A stretch of DNA of 47,589 nucleotides from Desulfobulbaceae bacterium. Lineage in GTDB: Bacteria > Desulfobacterota > Desulfobulbia > Desulfobulbales > SURF-16. This document shows positions 8,521 through 25,801 of this stretch, piece by piece; within the stretch, counting starts at the first letter, position 1; each line of letters opens with the position of its first letter. The DNA is taken from contig JAHLLM010000042.1 of assembly GCA_020444175.1 (NCBI GenBank), forward strand, positions 1 through 47,589. The letters are read 5' to 3'. The notes under the pieces were generated by a model that had not been told where the DNA came from, searched no databases, and saw only the letters and a program-made list of their open reading frames with translations. The translations under genes and the position numbers were made by a program.

Positions 8521-8972
8521 CGCAGTTCACCAATTTCCGTTAAAAAGTTTATTGGTCCATAACGGGCTTTGTTCATAACGGATCCAGAATTCGAGCTTAA
8601 TGCTGCTGAAGCCCGGCATCCATTTCCAAGGCCGAAACACAAAAGACCAAACAAAAACAACATAAATAAAATTATATACTTACAAACAATTCTCAGTTAA
8701 AAAATCGCCACTTTTCTGTCGCCAAGTTTCCAATACTGGATTCCCGCCTCCGCGGGAATGACATAACCAAGCCCGCCGTCACTCCCGCGGAGGCGGGAGT
8801 CTAGAGGTAGGCTACTGAGAAATGTATAGAGGCAAATAAAATTAAAAAAATACTTACTTTCTAACTCTCGCTCTTTTCACTATCATACCTTATAGCCTGA
8901 ATAATGAAGTTTTTCTCAACTTTCAGGAAACAGCATCATGTTTGCCCTCTTTTTTAAAAGAGACAGACAGGA
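8521..8972. other. Intergenic region holding a family-B inverted-repeat element
   Basis: About 450 bp between divergent rhomboid and MscS genes. The only structure seen is the repeat at 8686-8825; the A/T-rich flanks probably contain the two promoters. Confidence 0.5.
8686..8825. repeat. Family-B short inverted-repeat element, copy 1
   Basis: 140 bp bounded by ACAATTCTCAGT and the slightly degraded complement ACTGAGAAATGT. The core carries two dRS3-like palindromes (ATTCCCGCCTCCGCGGGAAT and CTCCCGCGGAGGCGGGAG) facing each other. A second copy at 25443-25581 is nearly identical, and similarity runs about 10 bp past the inverted repeats on both sides. It has no coding capacity and is probably a non-autonomous mobile element or REP-like unit. 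Confidence 0.85.
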
Positions 8973-11293: not shown

Positions 11294-12316
11294 ATGTCTA
11301 CACGACAACGCCGCCTGAACAGATTATGCCTGCCCCTGACAATCCTCATTGCATTCATAGGCGGCTGCGCTGATTTGAAAAAATCAAAGCCGATTCTGCC
11401 CATACGTGAATATGAAAAGATGATTGTCGGCAATCTCTATGCCGATTACGTCGGCACCCAAAACTGTCTTGCGGCCTGTCATGAGCACGACAAGCTCAAG
11501 CTGTCCTTTGATGCCAGCACCATGGGCGCCCAACTGAAAAAAGAATCCGGCATGCCTCTTGTGGATTGTGAATCCTGTCATGGCCCGGGCAGCCTTGCCA
11601 TCAAAGGGTTGACCAGGGAAATGGTGGAAATGAATGCGGCAAAAGGCATCAAAACCGCATGCGATTTCAAGACGCTCATTGATTTAAAAAATCTGCCGGC
11701 CACGGCACAATCCCTCACCTGCCTCAAGTGTCATACGGTCAACGCCACCTTTAACCTGCACAACTGGAATGCCGGACTCCACGCCTTAAACGAAGTATCC
11801 TGTTTTGACTGCCATGATATTCACGCAGGACCCGATTTAAAAGTCACGCCGCTGGCCTCTGGCCGGCTTTGTTTTTCCTGTCATCAAGCCGCCCAGGCGC
11901 AATTTTCCCTGCCCAGTCATCACCCCCTCAAGGAGGGCCGGGTCTTCTGTATTGACTGCCACAATCCCCATGGAGGATTTGCCGACCATAACCTGCATCA
12001 GGATACTGTCAAGGAAACCTGTGTCCAGTGTCATCCGGACAAAAGGGGCCCTTTCCTATATGAACATGCCGATGTGATGGATAACTGCGCCAACTGCCAC
12101 AGCCCCCATGGCTCGGTGAACAATAAGCTGCTGAACGCGCGGGAGCCTTTTTTATGTCTCCAGTGCCATGAGGGGCACAGATTAAACACGGAAGAAGGCG
12201 GCAGTGCCTCTGCCGAGAGAGCCAGGGCTTTTTATACCCGGTGCACGGACTGCCATTCCACACTGCATGGTTCCGATGTTCCATCAACCTCTGGAGGCGG
12301 GAGATTTATCCGATGA
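11294..12316 (+). CDS. DmsE/MtrA-like decahaem c-type cytochrome, lipoprotein
   Basis: 340 residues; AAGGAG precedes the ATG. A lipobox (IAFIGGC, Cys25) suggests lipidation instead of the soluble form of Shewanella MtrA. There are nine CxxCH motifs (CESCH, CLKCH, CFDCH, CFSCH, CIDCH, CVQCH, CANCH, CLQCH, CTDCH). The first site, at the position where family members have CxxCH after YVG, is CLAACH, i.e. CX3CH. This gives ten candidate haems. In MtrAB/PioAB systems such a cytochrome is threaded through the outer-membrane barrel encoded next door and carries electrons across the outer membrane. The stop overlaps the next start (ATGA). No outer-surface MtrC-type gene follows, so this is an A-B-only conduit unless a separate terminal cytochrome docks. 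Confidence 0.92.
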   Translation: MSTRQRRLNRLCLPLTILIAFIGGCADLKKSKPILPIREYEKMIVGNLYADYVGTQNCLAACHEHDKLKLSFDASTMGAQLKKESGMPLVDCESCHGPGSLAIKGLTREMVEMNAAKGIKTACDFKTLIDLKNLPATAQSLTCLKCHTVNATFNLHNWNAGLHALNEVSCFDCHDIHAGPDLKVTPLASGRLCFSCHQAAQAQFSLPSHHPLKEGRVFCIDCHNPHGGFADHNLHQDTVKETCVQCHPDKRGPFLYEHADVMDNCANCHSPHGSVNNKLLNAREPFLCLQCHEGHRLNTEEGGSASAERARAFYTRCTDCHSTLHGSDVPSTSGGGRFIR

Positions 12317-14310
12317 GATACAAAAAAACAAATTGTATCTTCAGCATCTATGTGATCGGCCTTGCTCTTTGCTGCACTGTTTCTCCGGCCATGGCTGCAG
12401 AAGATCCCCTCCCGCCCAAGACTGCCGAGACCACCGCCGAACCTGGACAGGAAGAATCTGCCGTCTCGTATGCCACGGAAGGGAATTTTTTCCTGGGATA
12501 CCGATGGGTATCCAACAAAGATTCCTTACAGGCATCAAAATATATTTATCCCCATTCCTCCGTCGCCTTTGGCCTGGATCTGCTTTCCTGCCCTCTTCCC
12601 TTCCGGTATCATGTCAATGCCGAATTTCTCAGCAATTATAATTATTATACGGATGCCGGCTTTGCCTATAAGGATCTGGTTCTGTTCAGGGACATTGTGG
12701 TCGGGGTCCATCATAATCTGAATCATGTAAGCTATCAGCAGGACGATGATCCCCCTGAAATAACTTACACGGACAGAAATGCAGGAGACGACTATTATAT
12801 CGATTTTGCCAGCAATCTGTTGTCACTCAGGCTCAAGGTACCTGACTTTCCGTTTCATACTTTTTTAAAACATCGCCATATTGAACGGGACGGCAAGATC
12901 CAGCAGAGATTTTTGCTGGGAGATTTTGATCAGCTCAACAAAAATTCCGAATCACGTGATATTGACTGGAAATCAGATGCAATGACCCTGGGGGCCAACA
13001 GTCATGTCGGGCCGATTGAAGTTGAATACAGCTATGATCAGGCCAAGTTCAAGCCGGGAAGCGACAGCATTCTTTACGACAGCTATCCCGCTGCTCTGGA
13101 TTTATCAAGGCCCGCGGACGTCTATCCGCACAATGTTGTTCCTGAAACCGAGTCATCGGCTCACGCCATCAAGCTGCACTCATCCTATACCGGCGGCATT
13201 GTAACCGCAGCCACCGTCAGTAATCTCTACCAGAAAAACAACTACAGCGGTACGGAATCGACCACATGGAAAGGGGCCTTTGACGTCAGCTGGATTCCCG
13301 CCCCGCCTATCGGTTTCTTTTTCAAATACAGGCACCGGGATGTGGATATGGACACCCCGAGCGCAGTCAGTCTCATCGGACAGAGCAACAGCTTCAACTA
13401 TTCGGTCAGGCAGGGCATTTCATATGACAAGGATGAGTTTTCCCTGTCTGCCAGATATAAACCGCTCAACAGCCTTACTCTTTTTGCAAATTACGATTTT
13501 TCCCATCTTTCCCGGGAAAATGTTAACGAATGGATCGTGCTGCCCGATGAAACCGACATCCACACCATCAATTTCACGGCACACGTCAGCCCCTTAAAAA
13601 AGGTTAAGGTCAAGGCCGGCTATGAATATAAAAATTACGACAACCCTGCCTATAATAGCACGCCGGACAACTCCAACAAGCTGCGTCTGACAACCACCTA
13701 CATCCCGACTCACTGGATCTACCTCTATCTGGAATACATTCTGTCCATGACAGAACGCGACTCCCTGCACTACCTCAACAACTCCCCTTCCCTGCTTCTG
13801 GAAACAGGAGAAAGAGATGGTCGGCACGATCAGTTTCTGGCCAGCCTGACAGCACAACTGTCTGCCAAGACATCCCTGACTGCCAGCTGGTTTTATCAAC
13901 GCTGGGATGTGGAACAGGACCTGGCTTACGGCAAATGGCTCACCTTCGACCTCGGGGACCTGCCTTATATTGACGTCGGAGTTCCCTATACCGACAAATC
14001 AAACTCCTTTTGCCTGTCTCTTCAGTATTTCCCCCGCAAGGATATAACCCTGACTGCCGATGCAACCTACACCATAAGCGAGGGCAAAACAGGGTATGAC
14101 GATGTGGTGGGTGGAGCACCATTTTCTCTTTCCTCTTTTTCAGCCTTAAAATCATCCGAAACCATCTTTTCCGTTGAAATAACAAAAAAGATTTCCAAAG
14201 AATGGGAAATCGGAGTCAGATCACATATGGAGATCTATAATGACAAGGCATACGATTTCCTGGACGGCAATGTATTCACCACGATCTTTGGTATAAAAAG
14301 GTATTTTTAA
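12313..14310 (+). CDS. MtrB/PioB-like outer-membrane beta-barrel
   Basis: 665 residues from the ATG overlapping the upstream stop; the longer in-frame ATG at 12241 lies inside the cytochrome gene. A signal peptide ends at SPAMA. The remainder alternates polar and hydrophobic residues in long strands with aromatic girdles and ends in IFGIKRYF, a typical C-terminal barrel strand. Length and pattern fit the 26-28-strand MtrB/PioB porins that sheath a decahaem cytochrome. A single cysteine (LLSCPLPF) is present in the mature part, so the N-terminal CxxC of Shewanella MtrB is missing. It is second in a five-gene operon. Confidence 0.88.
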   Translation: MRYKKTNCIFSIYVIGLALCCTVSPAMAAEDPLPPKTAETTAEPGQEESAVSYATEGNFFLGYRWVSNKDSLQASKYIYPHSSVAFGLDLLSCPLPFRYHVNAEFLSNYNYYTDAGFAYKDLVLFRDIVVGVHHNLNHVSYQQDDDPPEITYTDRNAGDDYYIDFASNLLSLRLKVPDFPFHTFLKHRHIERDGKIQQRFLLGDFDQLNKNSESRDIDWKSDAMTLGANSHVGPIEVEYSYDQAKFKPGSDSILYDSYPAALDLSRPADVYPHNVVPETESSAHAIKLHSSYTGGIVTAATVSNLYQKNNYSGTESTTWKGAFDVSWIPAPPIGFFFKYRHRDVDMDTPSAVSLIGQSNSFNYSVRQGISYDKDEFSLSARYKPLNSLTLFANYDFSHLSRENVNEWIVLPDETDIHTINFTAHVSPLKKVKVKAGYEYKNYDNPAYNSTPDNSNKLRLTTTYIPTHWIYLYLEYILSMTERDSLHYLNNSPSLLLETGERDGRHDQFLASLTAQLSAKTSLTASWFYQRWDVEQDLAYGKWLTFDLGDLPYIDVGVPYTDKSNSFCLSLQYFPRKDITLTADATYTISEGKTGYDDVVGGAPFSLSSFSALKSSETIFSVEITKKISKEWEIGVRSHMEIYNDKAYDFLDGNVFTTIFGIKRYF

Positions 14311-14311
14311 G

Positions 14312-15253
14312 TTGAATTCTTTACTCCACCCATTACTGAGATTAGTGCTCACCGTTTTTTTCGTCATGGCAGCCGCACCGGTTTTGCATGCTGAAAAACG
14401 CATCGGCGTCATTATGACCGGCAATATTCCTTATTACGGTGCCATGCACGAAACCTTTGTCACCGAGCTGAACGAGAGACTTCACGGAGCTGAGAAAACA
14501 GAAATAATCCTGCAAAGACCTTTTCCAAATCCCATATCCTGGAGTAATGCGGCGCGAAAGCTCATCGCCTTTGATGTGGACCTCATCGTGACCTATGGTT
14601 CACCTGCCACCCAGGCGGTTCTCCATGAAAAAAGCAACATTCCCTTAATCTATGCCGGGGTGTACGAATCAGGAGGCCATGCGGATGTTGACAGCAAAAA
14701 CGCAACAGGTTGCGGTTTCAAGGTCCCCTTATCAAGCATTATCAGGTATTTCAAAAGCCTCAAAACCCTCAGCAGCATTGGCATTGTCTACAGTGGTGTT
14801 GAGGAAGATTCAGTCAGTCAATACCAGTACATGAAACGACTGGCCGAGCAGCAGAAAATCAAGGTTGAAAAAATCGATATCCGATCACAGGCTGATATCT
14901 CTAAAATAAGGCCGGCAAATCCCGATGCAGTCTTCATTACGGGAAGCTCCATCGCCCATTTGTATCTTGATGAGATTCTCTCTGATCTGAAAAAAAAACA
15001 TATTCCCGCCGCAGATATTTTCCCGGATGATTCAGAATCCGGGCTGTTGATGACTCTGTTTCAACCTGCTCAGCCCCAGGGACAAATGGCTGCCGAAATG
15101 GCGTCACAAATTCTGCTCGGCAAAAAAGCCGCAAACATTGTTCCTCATACCTTCAGGGATACGGAGCTTGTCTTCAATCTTGTCGAGGCCAGGCATCTTG
15201 ACATCGCTTTTCCCATCCACCTGCTCATTGAAGCGACAAGGGTGATAAAATGA
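14312..15253 (+). CDS. ABC-type periplasmic binding protein (PF04392, TrpX-like)
   Basis: 313 residues; starts at a TTG one base after the barrel stop codon, with a signal peptide ending at VLHA. The mature protein opens with KRIGVIMTGNIPYY and has the two-lobed periplasmic-binding fold (DLIVTYGSPATQAVL, IPLIYAGVY, SIGIVYSGVEEDS, PDAVFITGSS). Relatives bind amino acids or related small ligands for uptake. No permease or ATPase gene is near, so here it may present a ligand to the haem-c kinase two genes downstream. Its stop overlaps the next start (ATGA). Confidence 0.85.
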   Translation: MNSLLHPLLRLVLTVFFVMAAAPVLHAEKRIGVIMTGNIPYYGAMHETFVTELNERLHGAEKTEIILQRPFPNPISWSNAARKLIAFDVDLIVTYGSPATQAVLHEKSNIPLIYAGVYESGGHADVDSKNATGCGFKVPLSSIIRYFKSLKTLSSIGIVYSGVEEDSVSQYQYMKRLAEQQKIKVEKIDIRSQADISKIRPANPDAVFITGSSIAHLYLDEILSDLKKKHIPAADIFPDDSESGLLMTLFQPAQPQGQMAAEMASQILLGKKAANIVPHTFRDTELVFNLVEARHLDIAFPIHLLIEATRVIK

Positions 15254-16272
15254 GCAGCCATCCCCTGTCAAACCTTGATGGTTTCGCAAAAAGCTCTCAA
15301 GCTGACCATCCGCCAACGCAATATCAACAAGTTACATACTTGTCGGCGGCGGTTGAGGGGGTTTTTACGAAACCGTCAAACCTTAATTTATGCAAAAAGC
15401 TCATCGGCTGCCTGCTCATATGTCTTTTCAGTGTAACCGCCCTGCCCGTTTCGGCAATGGACCAGCCGGAGGAACTGCTGATCGGCATCGAGCCGGAACA
15501 TAACATTTTTGACCAGATGGAACGCTATCGCTCTTTAGCTGCCTATCTTTCCGATCAACTCGGAGTCAAAGTAAAGCTCACCATTATGAGTCGTTATGGA
15601 GAGGTGATAAAGCGCTTTAAGTTCCTCAATCTCGATGGCGCCTTTCTCACCTCCTATACCGCCACCATGGCTATCAATGAGCTGCATCTGCAACCTGTGG
15701 CCAATCCCGTTAACCTGAACGGTGAGTCTACTTCCCAGGGATACATGTTTGTGCGCAAAGACAGCGACATACATGAGGTCAAGGATATGCAGGGCAAAAG
15801 ATTCATATTTGTAGACCCGGCAACAATGGAAGGCTACCTCTTTCCCCTGGCCTATTTGAAACAGCACGGCATTACGGATATCAATAAATTTTTTTATCGA
15901 TTTGATTTTTCCGGCAGTCATGCCTCGGCAATCTTTGCGGTCCTGGACGGGAGAGCTGATATCGGCTCGGCCAAAAATACGGTTTATAACAGACTGGTTA
16001 ACAACGACCCATCCATCCGGCAGGAACTGAACATCCTTGCCAAATCCTCCAAAGCCCCGGAAATTACCCTCTGTATAAGAAATGAAATCGATCCCCGGTT
16101 ACGGGAAAAACTGAGTGACATTCTGCTTCATATGGACGAAACATCTGCAGGCAGAAAGGTCCTCAAGCTGTTCAAGGCCCTTCGTTTCGTTAAGCCGAAC
16201 AGAGCGGATTTTGTCAGAATAGAAGAGATGGCACAGGAAGCAAGGGCGGCCATAGCGGAACACGGAAAGTAA
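15250..16272 (+). CDS. PhnD-like periplasmic binding protein with repeat-derived N-terminal extension
   Basis: 340 residues. The conserved part begins EELLIGIEPEHNIFDQMERY and continues as a PF12974-type phosphate/phosphite/phosphonate binding protein (FLTSYTATM, GKRFIFVDPATMEGYLFP, ADIGSAKNTV). The hydrophobic signal segment ends at LPVSA near residue 68, far from the ATG. Residues 10-45 or so are encoded by a 101-bp inverted-repeat element plus one 7-bp target duplication. Removing these 108 bp restores MSSHPLSNLN-LCKKL and a normal signal peptide. No transporter partners are present; a sensory role with the adjacent kinase is likely. The ATG overlaps the previous stop, so translational coupling supports this start. 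Whether Sec still recognises the displaced signal is uncertain. Confidence 0.85.
   Translation: MSSHPLSNLDGFAKSSQADHPPTQYQQVTYLSAAVEGVFTKPSNLNLCKKLIGCLLICLFSVTALPVSAMDQPEELLIGIEPEHNIFDQMERYRSLAAYLSDQLGVKVKLTIMSRYGEVIKRFKFLNLDGAFLTSYTATMAINELHLQPVANPVNLNGESTSQGYMFVRKDSDIHEVKDMQGKRFIFVDPATMEGYLFPLAYLKQHGITDINKFFYRFDFSGSHASAIFAVLDGRADIGSAKNTVYNRLVNNDPSIRQELNILAKSSKAPEITLCIRNEIDPRLREKLSDILLHMDETSAGRKVLKLFKALRFVKPNRADFVRIEEMAQEARAAIAEHGK
15277..15377 (+). mobile_element. Family-A 101-bp inverted-repeat element, copy 1 (intragenic)
   Basis: Starts GATGGTTTCGCAAAAA and ends TTTTTACGAAACCGTC, i.e. 16-bp terminal inverted repeats with two mismatches. It is flanked on both sides by the direct repeat AAACCTT (15270-15276 and 15378-15384). 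It has no own gene. The same element occurs at 18795-18913 and 25597-25697 in the other orientation. Confidence 0.9.
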
Positions 16273-16275
16273 CTG

Positions 16276-17823
16276 ATGAAGAAAAAAATTATCATTTCCT
16301 TTATCCTGTTATTTCTGCTCTTTCTGGCCGGCATCGTCACAACTCTGCATATTATCACCAAGACAACCGCAAATCTCACAGCCCTTCTTTCGCTTCACAA
16401 GGTCGAGGTTATCCGCCAGGATCTGGTCATCAACGTCCAGACCGTGCAGTCAAACCTGTATACTACAGGAACCTCATTCGGCAAGGAGTTGGACACCATA
16501 GTGGACAATGTTCTCAAACTCCAGGACAGGGCTCAAACATGTACGGACTGCCACCATGAACCGAACGTGGAAAAAGAAATCATTCACCTGCAGGAGCTGA
16601 CTGAACAGTACAAGGAAGCTCTCAGTTACTTTATAACCTCTACGGCGGATGCCCAGAGGGTCAAAAGACTTCAGACCTTTGCAGCCGATATCGGGGACAG
16701 GATAATTGTAAAATCCCAGTGGATGGCCATGACCGCCAATAACACCTTGCGGGACAAAACAACCTCTGCAATGAAGGAAGTGGCGGACTCTAAAAAAATC
16801 CTCACAGGCACGCTTGCTTTTGCCTTCCTGCTGAGCGTCTTCATTTCCCTTTATTTTATCAAAAGCATCACCAAGCCCGTGGCAGAACTTTTGAGTGCCA
16901 CCCGCAAAATAAAGTCAGGCAAGCTGCAGTACCGGATTGAGGAAGAATTACAAGATGAATTCGGTGAACTGGCAGCCTCGTTTAATGAGATGGCCGGTTC
17001 CCTGAAGGACCAATATAAAAGATTACAGGAAACGGAACGCCTGGCTGTTGTAGGCGAACTTGCAGCAGGCATGGCCCACGAAATCAAAAATCCCATGGCC
17101 GGCATAAAGGTGTCCATGGAGGTGCTGAGCCAGGATTCTCCCCTTGATCCTGAGGACAAAGAGGTTCTTCACCAGGTCATCAATGAGATTGACAGAATTA
17201 CGGCTCTGCTCAAAGGACTGCTCAACTACGCCCGGCCGCCGAAGCCCAAAATGATTTCCCTGGATGTGAACCAGGCGCTGGAAGCCACGATGAAATCTGC
17301 AAAATATGCCCTCAACACACCGAAACGAAAGACCATGGAACAGGAGAGGCAAATCGAATTCGTCACAGATTTAAGCCCTGATCTCTCGCATATCATTGCT
17401 GACCCGGCCCAGCTGCAGCAGGTTTTTCTCAACCTTATTCTGAATGCAGTGGACGCTGTTTCCTCTCTTTCCGAACGTCAAGGCCTTATAACAATACAAA
17501 CCCGGCAATCAGAGGAAGGCTTTGTGCAAATTTCCATTACCGATAATGGAAAAGGCATAGGCCGAGAATCACTTGGGAAAATATTCAACCCGTTTTTCAC
17601 GACAAAACCCCAGGGAACCGGCCTGGGTCTGGCAATCACAAAACGTCTTATTGAACAGCACAATGGCGGCAGCATTACGGCAACCAGCAACCCGGACGGC
17701 CACGGGGTGACCTTTACCATCTCTCTGCCGGTTGAACAAAACAAGGCCAACAGCCAAGGCAAGAAAATTACCCGGCACGGCAACGCGAAAAACCGCAACC
17801 AGACTGACGACAGGCGAGAATAA
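16276..17823 (+). CDS. Sensor histidine kinase with haem-c site in the periplasmic domain
   Basis: 515 residues. Membrane helix 1 (residues 5-28), periplasmic helical sensor with one CTDCHH (Cys89, Cys92, His93) for covalent haem, membrane helix 2 (about 175-195), HAMP, HisKA with AHEIKNP (phospho-His near 268), and HATPase with NLILNAVDA (N box), DNGKGIG, FTTKPQGTGLGL (G boxes). It should sense redox state, a gaseous ligand or a docked binding protein and autophosphorylate. It is last in the operon of the decahaem conduit and two binding proteins and has no response regulator of its own; the sigma-54 regulator at 20700 is the obvious partner. Its C-terminal tail is basic and disordered. Confidence 0.93.
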   Translation: MKKKIIISFILLFLLFLAGIVTTLHIITKTTANLTALLSLHKVEVIRQDLVINVQTVQSNLYTTGTSFGKELDTIVDNVLKLQDRAQTCTDCHHEPNVEKEIIHLQELTEQYKEALSYFITSTADAQRVKRLQTFAADIGDRIIVKSQWMAMTANNTLRDKTTSAMKEVADSKKILTGTLAFAFLLSVFISLYFIKSITKPVAELLSATRKIKSGKLQYRIEEELQDEFGELAASFNEMAGSLKDQYKRLQETERLAVVGELAAGMAHEIKNPMAGIKVSMEVLSQDSPLDPEDKEVLHQVINEIDRITALLKGLLNYARPPKPKMISLDVNQALEATMKSAKYALNTPKRKTMEQERQIEFVTDLSPDLSHIIADPAQLQQVFLNLILNAVDAVSSLSERQGLITIQTRQSEEGFVQISITDNGKGIGRESLGKIFNPFFTTKPQGTGLGLAITKRLIEQHNGGSITATSNPDGHGVTFTISLPVEQNKANSQGKKITRHGNAKNRNQTDDRRE

Positions 17824-18794: not shown

Positions 18795-18913
18795 GACGCT
18801 TTCGTATTTATGCCCTTTAGGGTGAAAACCCTCTCAACCGCCGCCGGAACGTGTGTAACTTGTTGATATTGCGCCGGCGGATGGTCAGCTACAGGACTTT
18901 TTGCGAGATTGTC
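18795..18913 (-). mobile_element. Family-A inverted-repeat element, copy 2 (with 18-bp insertion)
   Basis: Outer parts match the 101-bp element (GACGCTTTCGTA at one end, TTTTTGCGAGATTGTC at the other), with about 18 extra bases near the left end including CCCTTTAGGG. It is flanked by ACATTT on both sides (18789-18794 and 18914-18919). It is more diverged than copies 1 and 3, so probably older. It lies directly upstream of the hexahaem cytochrome gene's ribosome binding site. Confidence 0.85.
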
Positions 18914-19237
18914 ACATTTCCCTCTCGCCAAATGAGAGAGGAGAGGAATATTATGTTGTTGTGAGATATGATACTCTTCAGTAAAGTAATACCATGTGGG
19001 ATTGTTATTGAGAAGCCGACAGCTTTTCCTTTTCATGGCAGATACGAAATTACATTCATGTAGCATGGACGAGACTGAAAGTATATCATAGTTTTCAAGT
19101 TTCTTGGCCGCTGCCCGGAAGAGGAAAAGACCAGATCAACCTCACACCCCAGGAATACAGTCAATGCAAACAGGACCTGTCCTTGAGCAGGATCATTCAA
19201 AACCAATAGACACACCCCTTTTAAGTCCGGTACCTGT
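18914..19237. other. Intergenic region upstream of kinase 2
   Basis: About 325 bp without a supported gene. Short frames here are chance or derive from the repeat. It should hold the promoter for the kinase 2-regulator pair; no -24/-12 box is seen. Confidence 0.35.
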
Positions 19238-23729: not shown

Positions 23730-23919
23730 CCTGCATAAAGTAACAACAAGCACCCCGATGTCCTGCCTCCTTGAACAACTCGACATCGGCAAAAGAAAAA
23801 AACAATTCCATACATAAATCAGACTGAAAAGGAGGGAAAAGGCAACAAAAAGGAAAACAAAAGAAAAAAGCGAAATTTGAGAACAGAATGACAAATCAGT
23901 CGGAAGTCCGACAACGAAA

Positions 23920-24008
23920 ATCCTCCGAAAAAGGTAAACCTGCTGCAAGGCAGGGACACAAAGTCGACGGATCCTTGAAACGAACAAGGATGGCCGGGCT
24001 GCCGGGGA
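23920..24008 (+). ncRNA. GEMM-I (cyclic di-GMP-I class) riboswitch
   Basis: All core elements occur in order: AAAGGTAAACC (23930-23940), a 6-bp stem capped by the GNRA loop GCAA (23939-23954), GGGACACAAAGTC (23953-23965; consensus GGGACGCAAAGCC), a second stem ATCCTTG/CAAGGAT with an A-rich loop (23971-23991), and the closing GCCGGGCTGCCGG (23993-24005). The base matching Vc2 G20 appears to be G, which favours cyclic di-GMP over cGAMP, subject to proper alignment. It ends about 15 nt before the Shine-Dalgarno of the OmcS-like gene. A small hairpin TCATC-TTGGAG-GATGA (24015-24030) can hold that site, suggesting translational control. Confidence 0.86.
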
Positions 24009-24031
24009 AACAAATCATCTTGGAGGATGAA

Positions 24032-25189
24032 ATGAAAAAGACGTATAAAATCTCTTTAGTAGCAGGCGCAACAATGTTGACTCTGGCCTTCGCCGGTACC
24101 GCAATGGCATTTCATGGCGGCGGTGTTGCCCACTGTGACGGATGTCATTCCATGCATAATTCTCCGGAAAACCCGGTTGCAGGAACACCTGGCGGCCAAC
24201 TGCTGAAAGGAACGGACGCAAGCTCCACCTGTCTGAACTGTCATGACGGCGCCGGCAGCTACCATGTCAACAGTGCCGACGGCTCCAATGCCAAGGAAGG
24301 CGGCGACTTTTACTGGGTAACCAATCCCTATGATGTGGTCGTTCGCGGCAACACCAAGACCTATGGCGGCGACAATGCCGGTCATAATATTGTTGCAGCC
24401 GACTTCAGCATGAACGCCGACCCGGTAAACACCCAGGCCCCAGGCGGCACCTATTCCGCCACCCTGCTCGGCTGTACTAGCTGCCATGACGCCCATGGCC
24501 AGGTTCTTGACGGAACAAAGGGCGGCAGCCTGCCCATCTCCGTTTCCGGTTCCTATGACGACACCGTCCCCACCGGAACCATTGCCGGTAACTACCGTCT
24601 CCTCGGCGACTCCATGTACGAGGCCGGTAACCATACTGCTGACGGTTTTGCCTACTCCAATGACGCCCCGGTTGCTCTGACCAACGGCTCAAGCGGCGCC
24701 TGGACCCGTTACGGAACCGGTATGTCGGAATGGTGCGCCAACTGTCACGGCGACTACCTGAACTCATCAACCAAGCATGTGGCCGGTGCCGGCAACGGTA
24801 TCCTGAACGGTTTTGGCACCAACTATAACTCCTATGTGGCAACCGGTGACTTCGAAGGCGTTCAGGCAACAGCCTATGATGATCTCGTTCCCTTTGAGAC
24901 CGGCGGCGACAAAGCATCCCTGATTACCGCAGGCCAAAGCACAGCCGGTCCGGTTGCAGGAGCCCAGGTTATGTGTCTGACCTGCCATCGCGCCCATGCC
25001 TCCGCCCACAACAATATGGGCCGCTGGGACTTTGAGACCGAGCTTATTGCCGAATCCCACGCCCTTGAATCAACTGACGTACCGGCGACCGCTGCAGTTT
25101 ACTACAAAGACGGTGTGGTCATCGATGTTGCCACTGATTACGGACATTACCAGCGCTCACTGTGTAACAAGTGCCACGTCCAGGATTAA
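24032..25189 (+). CDS. omcS: OmcS-like hexahaem cytochrome (nanowire-type)
   Basis: 385 residues; start chosen after GGAGG, downstream of the riboswitch. Signal peptide ends TAMA, mature start FHGGGVAHCDGCHSMHNS, matching Geobacter OmcS (FHSGGVAECEGCHTMHN, from memory). Six CxxCH: CDGCH, CLNCH, CTSCH, CANCH, CLTCH, CNKCH. OmcS landmarks continue: SYHVNSADG, GGDFYWV, GHNIVAADF, APGGTY, CHDAHG, LPISVSGSY, YGTGMSEWCANCH, CLTCHRAHAS and YQRSLCNKCH. Geobacter OmcS is about 430 residues and polymerises into a filament of stacked haems for long-range extracellular electron transfer. This protein is shorter, mostly by loop deletions. It is controlled by a sigma-54 promoter and a riboswitch and followed by a strong terminator, so it is probably monocistronic and highly expressed. 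Confidence 0.9.
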   Translation: MKKTYKISLVAGATMLTLAFAGTAMAFHGGGVAHCDGCHSMHNSPENPVAGTPGGQLLKGTDASSTCLNCHDGAGSYHVNSADGSNAKEGGDFYWVTNPYDVVVRGNTKTYGGDNAGHNIVAADFSMNADPVNTQAPGGTYSATLLGCTSCHDAHGQVLDGTKGGSLPISVSGSYDDTVPTGTIAGNYRLLGDSMYEAGNHTADGFAYSNDAPVALTNGSSGAWTRYGTGMSEWCANCHGDYLNSSTKHVAGAGNGILNGFGTNYNSYVATGDFEGVQATAYDDLVPFETGGDKASLITAGQSTAGPVAGAQVMCLTCHRAHASAHNNMGRWDFETELIAESHALESTDVPATAAVYYKDGVVIDVATDYGHYQRSLCNKCHVQD

Positions 25190-25442: not shown

Positions 25443-25581
25443 ACAATTCTCAGTTAAAAATTGCCACTTTCTTGTCGCCAAGTTTCCAATACTGGATTCC
25501 CGCCTCCGCGGGAATGACATAACCAAGCCCGCCGTCACTCCCGCGGAGGCGGGAATCTAGAGGGTGGCTACTGAGAATTGT
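25443..25581. repeat. Family-B short inverted-repeat element, copy 2
   Basis: 139 bp bounded by ACAATTCTCAGT and its exact complement ACTGAGAATTGT; the core has the same paired GC-rich palindromes as the copy at 8686-8825, with only a few substitutions. A family-A element has inserted a few bases past its right end. Confidence 0.88.
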
Positions 25582-25596
25582 CTAGAGGCAAATTTT

Positions 25597-25697
25597 GACG
25601 GTTTCGTAAAAACCCCCTCAACCGCCGCCGACAAGTATGTAACTTGTTGATATTGCGTTGGCGGATGGTCAGCTTGAGAGCTTTTTGCGAGACCATC
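25597..25697 (-). mobile_element. Family-A 101-bp inverted-repeat element, copy 3
   Basis: Same length and nearly the same sequence as copy 1 in opposite orientation (GACGGTTTCGTAAAAA to TTTTTGCGAGACCATC). Flanked by perfect 7-bp direct repeats AAATTTT (25590-25596, 25698-25704). It lies immediately beyond the family-B repeat and about 100 bp upstream of the second OmcS-like gene. Confidence 0.92.
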
Positions 25698-25801
25698 AAA
25701 TTTTCCATTAATCTGCAAAAAGCGCGTAGGGTGTTCCTGCAGCAGTTTCCCCTGCGCTGAACTGATAAAACAAACAAGCAGCTGTCATTACCTGGGTCTT
25801 C

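Follow-up and report, generated by a model that had tools for sequence, protein, structure and literature searches.

A recent in-frame MITE insertion shifts the predicted signal core of a periplasmic binding protein and is probably tolerated

In-frame fusions of MITEs with protein-coding genes are already known from Rickettsia, Yersinia, and Coxiella, and one of those described falls within a predicted signal peptide. In Rickettsia, small palindromic repeats (RPEs) are reported in frame within protein genes that they do not destroy (PMC10969869 and PMC2229807), and nearly half of the 44 RPEs of R. conorii lie within genes (PMC10969869); the RPE duplication is entered as "?" in PMC2229807. Such fusions are also described from enterobacteria, among them Yersinia YPO1552, the predicted signal peptide of which is partly derived from a MITE, RU-2/YPAL (PMC2759123). 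Coxiella QMITE2 provides in-frame extensions, for example, 33 C-terminal residues of EnhC in the Dugway strain (PMC5896051). Very long N-terminal signal sequences also serve Sec export in autotransporters (PMC2805444).

The window that we analyzed, a 47,589-nt stretch of DNA from a Desulfobulbaceae bacterium, contains a further clean example with strong empty-site evidence: a 101-bp MITE within the leader of a gene for a PhnD-like periplasmic substrate-binding protein. Several differences from those cases stand out. RPEs are frequent in genes, whereas this element gives 1 clear case in 92 copies; target duplications are clear here, in contrast to the "?" given for RPEs, and the likeness to RPEs is one of kind, drawn from the papers rather than from sequence. 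In YPO1552, the element supplies residues 1–30, including the start, whereas the window element interrupts a leader that already existed, ahead of the hydrophobic core, and orthologues in a conserved operon show the empty site. The Dugway EnhC example is C-terminal, unlike an insertion in a leader, and the extended signal peptide region of autotransporters is a class-wide feature, whereas ours is a single recent insertion. A literature search returned no paper on a MITE in Desulfobulb- taxa and, in the text accessible for the papers that it did return, no insertion of this kind beyond that of PMC2759123.

The gene (positions 15250–16272, forward strand) encodes 340 aa with the element and 304 aa without it, and its 340 codons contain no internal stop. 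Residues 89–320 of the 340-aa protein match Phosphonate-bd (Pfam PF12974; E = 7.8e-58), and the protein scores 152.9 bits against TIGR01098, for which the cut-off is 112.05. A Shine-Dalgarno-like AAGGG followed by the ATG start can be read in the sequence at 15238–15252 (forward strand). The start overlaps by 4 nt, as ATGA, the stop of an upstream gene (14312–15253, forward strand) for an ABC_sub_bind substrate-binding protein (PF04392; E = 1.4e-24). Downstream lies a gene for a sensor histidine kinase with HAMP, HisKA, and HATPase domains by Pfam (16276–17823, forward strand); it is open along its full length and shows 74%–82% identity, over the part compared, to the eight closest orthologue loci. 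Upstream of the two binding-protein genes and the kinase gene, a multihaem cytochrome gene adjoins an MtrB/PioB-like porin gene (11294–14310), a pair that suggests outer-membrane electron transfer.

The element occupies 15277–15377 (forward strand) and extends from GATGG to CCGTC, the 101-bp consensus extent across copies. As RNA, it is predicted to fold as a single long hairpin (−41.9 kcal/mol, z = −5.5), in which its ends pair with each other as terminal inverted repeats. On either side stands AAACCTT, a 7-bp target-site duplication with its left copy at 15270–15276 and its right copy at 15378–15384 (both forward strand), and an exact 10-bp direct repeat, GTCAAACCTT, is found at both element edges with a period of 108. 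The element plus one duplication makes 108 bp, or 36 codons, added in frame after codon 9 (CTT), the last base of which directly abuts the element. Two of the six frames are stop-free through the insert and its two junctions. Within the 36-residue extension, SSQADHPPTQYQQVTYLSAAVEGVFTK is a tryptic peptide. A promoter scan and Rfam returned nothing for the element; a terminator scan did not flag it, under a rule (loop of 3–8, then a T run) that is ill-suited to a long imperfect hairpin. The initial annotation had proposed a mobile element with a target duplication (101 + 7 = 108 bp), excision of which rejoins SNL to NLCKKL as a standard signal peptide, and which is open in the frame of the gene and adds 36 codons ahead of the signal. 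Each part holds: the boundaries were set by comparing copies, deleting 15277–15384 fuses MSSHPLSNL with NLCKKLIGCLLICLF, and the 340-aa frame is intact.

To compare the site among orthologues, we took the 12 closest loci (L042–L053) and 11 named loci (L139–L149); L150, an element copy alone, was left out, and more distant loci (47% identity or less) were inspected and kept out of the counts. A script placed the start in 22 of these 23 loci, 4 of which repeat the same contigs, leaving 18 distinct orthologues; L047, read by eye, is the 19th. Identity of the 18 to the window protein is 54%–77% over at least 259 residues, except for L149 (82.5% over 80). The 36-residue extension is absent from all 18 (22 loci, by script) and from L047 (by eye). 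Between 37 and 45 residues precede a GIEPEHN-type motif in 22 of 22 loci, and in the window protein the number is 78, or 42 once the element is removed; L047 has the ATGA overlap and 42 residues ahead of the motif. The 4-nt overlap with the upstream gene recurs in 21 of the 22 loci, the upstream gene being out of view in the remaining one. In an alignment of 11 sequences, the extra block is present in the window protein alone. The proposed insertion therefore came through the comparison with orthologues well: 0 of 19 carry the extension, and no orthologue was found that has the extension without flanking duplications.

The same element is dispersed through its own genome. An exact core pattern gave 93 matches there (0 for the reversed control), of which 92 were screened, one having flanks identical to those of another; the exact-core set omits some copies, e.g., L030. 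A DNA search, with the best 40 of 226 candidates scored, gave 43 full-element matches, 40 of them at 95%–100% identity. The left duplication usually ends in T, and the right one usually begins with A. A duplication of at least 5 bp was detected in 82 of the 92 copies and none in the other 10, although the search used many offsets, so that a small number of the shortest repeats could be coincidental, and the longer printed lengths include matching element bases. Periods in the 82 copies are 107 (46 copies), 108 (22), 125 (6), 126 (3), 109 (3), 106 (1), and 105 (1); with a 101-bp element, 107 and 108 correspond to 6- and 7-bp duplications. At 101 bp, transposase-free, with terminal inverted repeats, a target duplication in 82 of 92 copies, and dispersed copies, the element is a MITE. 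Elsewhere in the window are a second young copy, which is intergenic (25594–25704, reverse strand), and an older diverged one (18822–18922, reverse strand; 86% over 85 bp). A second palindromic repeat family, 138 bp long, is also present at 8700–8837 and 25456–25593 (94% identical), and one of its copies directly abuts the young element copy at 25594–25704.

The insertion in the window gene is recent, because the copy is near-identical to its sister copies (1 mismatch in 102 positions to 16 of 43 others and at most 2 to 28 of 43), no full copy was found in 57 relatives (at most the best 15 candidates scored per genome), and of 257 genomes in the order, its own is the only one with the exact core. 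Element matches were found in 3 of 58 genomes, namely its own and two with weak partial matches (at most 15 candidates scored in each). A near-identical copy lies at 2256–2359 of L150, on a contig binned as Deltaproteobacteria MAG130, where it adjoins Fic-like and restriction-modification-like frames (by eye). MAG130 has 2 element matches, both on this contig, the end of which is one of the copies; a 1-kb piece of the contig matches the genome studied here over a limited 183 bases (82%). Mis-binning or a mobile region is a possible source of this copy. Of the 92 copies, 73 are open in the frame that the window gene uses, and 65 in the next one. We considered selection on the element as coding sequence and rejected it: hardly any copy is in a recognisable gene, and the open frames reflect youth.

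A candidate partner for the element is found on contig 56 of the same genome (L004, 516–1814), where TGATGGTCTCGTAAAAAG occurs at both ends of an insertion sequence (IS) in inverted orientation, matching the most frequent left end of the element at 17/18 positions. In this IS, a frame of 296 aa encodes a DUF772 transposase domain and weakly resembles IS1182; a stop and decayed sequence come after it. The fragment scores 39.8 bits against NF033551 (IS1182), for which the family cut-off is 270. No further such transposase was found in the assembly searched, and no duplication was seen by eye in the flanks of the contig 56 IS. Transposase matches were present in 7 of 116 genomes, including its own. 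In the best relative, the transposase is 74% identical over 296 aa, spans at least 560 aa (its frame is still open where the contig stops), and has DDE_Tnp_1_6, DDE_Tnp_1, and DUF772 domains. It is closest to NF033551, at 165.2 bits against the cut-off of 270, with a frame that runs off the contig. About 120 bp before it lies an end 16/18 identical to the contig 56 IS end, the other end being beyond the contig. The ends of an IS1182-like IS thus match those of the element, whereas the element itself lacks a transposase and both candidate transposases fall below the family cut-off. The candidate partner IS is called IS1182-like only, its transposase being below the curated IS1182 score; judged by these sequences, an IS1182-like transposase is a likely driver of the element.

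To assess how often genes are hit, we screened the 92 copies for frames of at least 100 aa across the element, 82 of them also at the empty site and 12 loci also by eye; genes shorter than 100 aa are missed by this screen, and a Pfam-negative frame may still be a gene. A crossing frame was found in 19 of the 92 copies. Apart from the window gene, 2 of the 18 crossing frames have a Pfam match (L086, phosphorylase, and L091, aminotransferase), in both cases with the domain and the likely start downstream of the element, and the other 16 are Pfam-negative at E 0.01. Among the 92 copies, the window copy is the sole one that we found within a gene body, flanked on either side by coding sequence. 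In 6 of 82 cases (L005, L022, L083, L087, L098, and L103), the element is inserted at the final sense codon of a long frame, or at most 3 codons past it, and the frame keeps its length; in L087, L098, and L103, the stop codon read is a TGA at the left junction of the element. Several other candidates were rejected. L030 appeared to be a second in-frame case (437 → 473 aa), but its frame is Pfam-negative and opposite a TrkA-domain gene, at the very end of which the element lies. Frames at L086, L091, L107, and L121 reach into the element, with Pfam domains and likely starts (read by eye) downstream, and the frame at L120 lies antisense to a gene encoding Hpt and histidine-kinase dimer domains. 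At L118, a GNAT acetyltransferase frame has an old diverged copy with a doubtful duplication at its 3′ end (171 aa with the copy and 183 aa without), and the copy may supply the last residues of that protein.

Long frames make up about 87% of the window, yet the copies lie nearly all outside genes; the element therefore avoids genes strongly, by target choice, selection, or both. Its duplications are A+T-rich, which is compatible with target choice, and G+C in the window is 44% between long frames vs 49% overall. The initial annotation had further read the locus as showing how the element can donate coding sequence. An in-frame case does exist, but the generalization was overstated: with only the window copy in a gene body among 92, and perhaps a few C-terminal residues at L118, coding sequence is rarely donated in this genome. 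Periods are divisible by 3 in 26 of 82 copies, which together with 2 open frames of 6 means that an insertion at random within a gene would keep it open about 1 time in 10. That the sole intragenic copy is in frame and open hints at selection for a working product, on n = 1 and short of proof.

The features of a Sec signal, judged by eye and a hydropathy window, are present in the interrupted leader. The end of the n-region (NLCKK), the hydrophobic core, and the likely cleavage region, LIGCLLICLFSVTALPVSA, are at 15385–15456 (forward strand), with a KK pair before the core and small residues at the putative cleavage site. The most hydrophobic 10-residue window begins after 50 residues with the element and after 14 without it, against 9–19 in the 22 orthologue loci. 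An AlphaFold model of the protein is weak (mean pLDDT 53.5, with residues 1–44 below 50). Translation most likely starts at ATG 15250, given its conserved position, the preceding AAGGG, and a predicted accessibility that is the same with or without the insert (unpaired probability of the start region, 0.34 and 0.33, respectively).

We suggest the following course of events. A MITE with IS1182-like ends, presumably mobilized by an IS1182-like transposase, inserted at AAACCTT in codons 7–9 and duplicated these 7 bp. Since its landing orientation and frame is stop-free, translation from the original ATG would read 36 extra codons, lengthening the n-region from about 13 to 49 residues and leaving the KK pair, hydrophobic core, and cleavage region untouched. 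The protein would still be targeted to Sec, and the extension would be removed together with the signal peptide. From the sequence, we infer that the longer protein is translated, exported, and functional, and that a near-neutral, tolerated insertion is the likeliest outcome. We hold with considerable confidence that a recent in-frame MITE insertion has moved the signal core, itself intact, from near residue 14 to near residue 50 and is probably tolerated; the insertion, the empty orthologous sites, the open frame, and the open neighboring genes are direct observations.

Other readings deserve weighing. Unlikely, although to be taken seriously, is a hidden knock-out, in which the long charged n-region or the hairpin blocks export or expression of a gene too young to have decayed. 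A hairpin as strong as that of the insert (about −42 kcal/mol), lying early in the mRNA, could reduce expression or act as a terminator. As the element has hardly mutated, decay would so far stay invisible, and the open frame by itself says little on function, including the survival of the gene that the initial annotation read from it. Loss of the protein might also be bearable, as 36 own-genome matches, mostly element copies, include at least 2 other related proteins (44% and 22% identity). Against this reading, the sole intragenic copy of 92 keeps the frame, contains no stop, and sits at an insensitive point of the gene, an outcome expected at random in about 10% of cases, again with n = 1. 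An internal start at TTG 15340, which would yield only a short extension or else another leader, is improbable: this codon is in frame, and the insert offers no other start of a common type in that frame, but by eye no Shine-Dalgarno-like sequence precedes it, whereas ATG 15250 keeps its AAGGG and conserved position. We regard as very improbable the idea that the 36 MITE-derived residues form a functional extended n-region altering the timing, route, or amount of export; if true, a transposon would have given a sensor-linked binding protein a new targeting property. An assembly error that fused two repeat copies at the site is hardly credible. The genome is a draft of 90 contigs with dozens of near-identical copies, but both flanks match one contiguous orthologous gene, share the site-specific 7-bp duplication, and leave the gene joined in frame. 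Finally, an ancestral coding extension merely resembling the repeat can be dismissed, as it is absent from 19 of 19 distinct orthologues and near-identical copies are found at other sites in the genome, very few of them in recognisable genes.

The locus is an unusually clean natural experiment, combining an exact duplication, dozens of sister copies, a conserved neighborhood, and an empty site in 19 distinct orthologues. The filled and empty leaders form a ready allele pair for probing the n-region length that a Sec signal tolerates. They also illustrate one route by which a transposon lengthens a protein while the frame is kept open, a principle already published. Elsewhere in the window, a c-di-GMP-I-GGC riboswitch (RF03167; 59.5 bits against a threshold of 59) lies at 23924–24007 (forward strand), at the start of a frame (23888–25189) with CXXCH motifs by eye, the true start of which is probably downstream.
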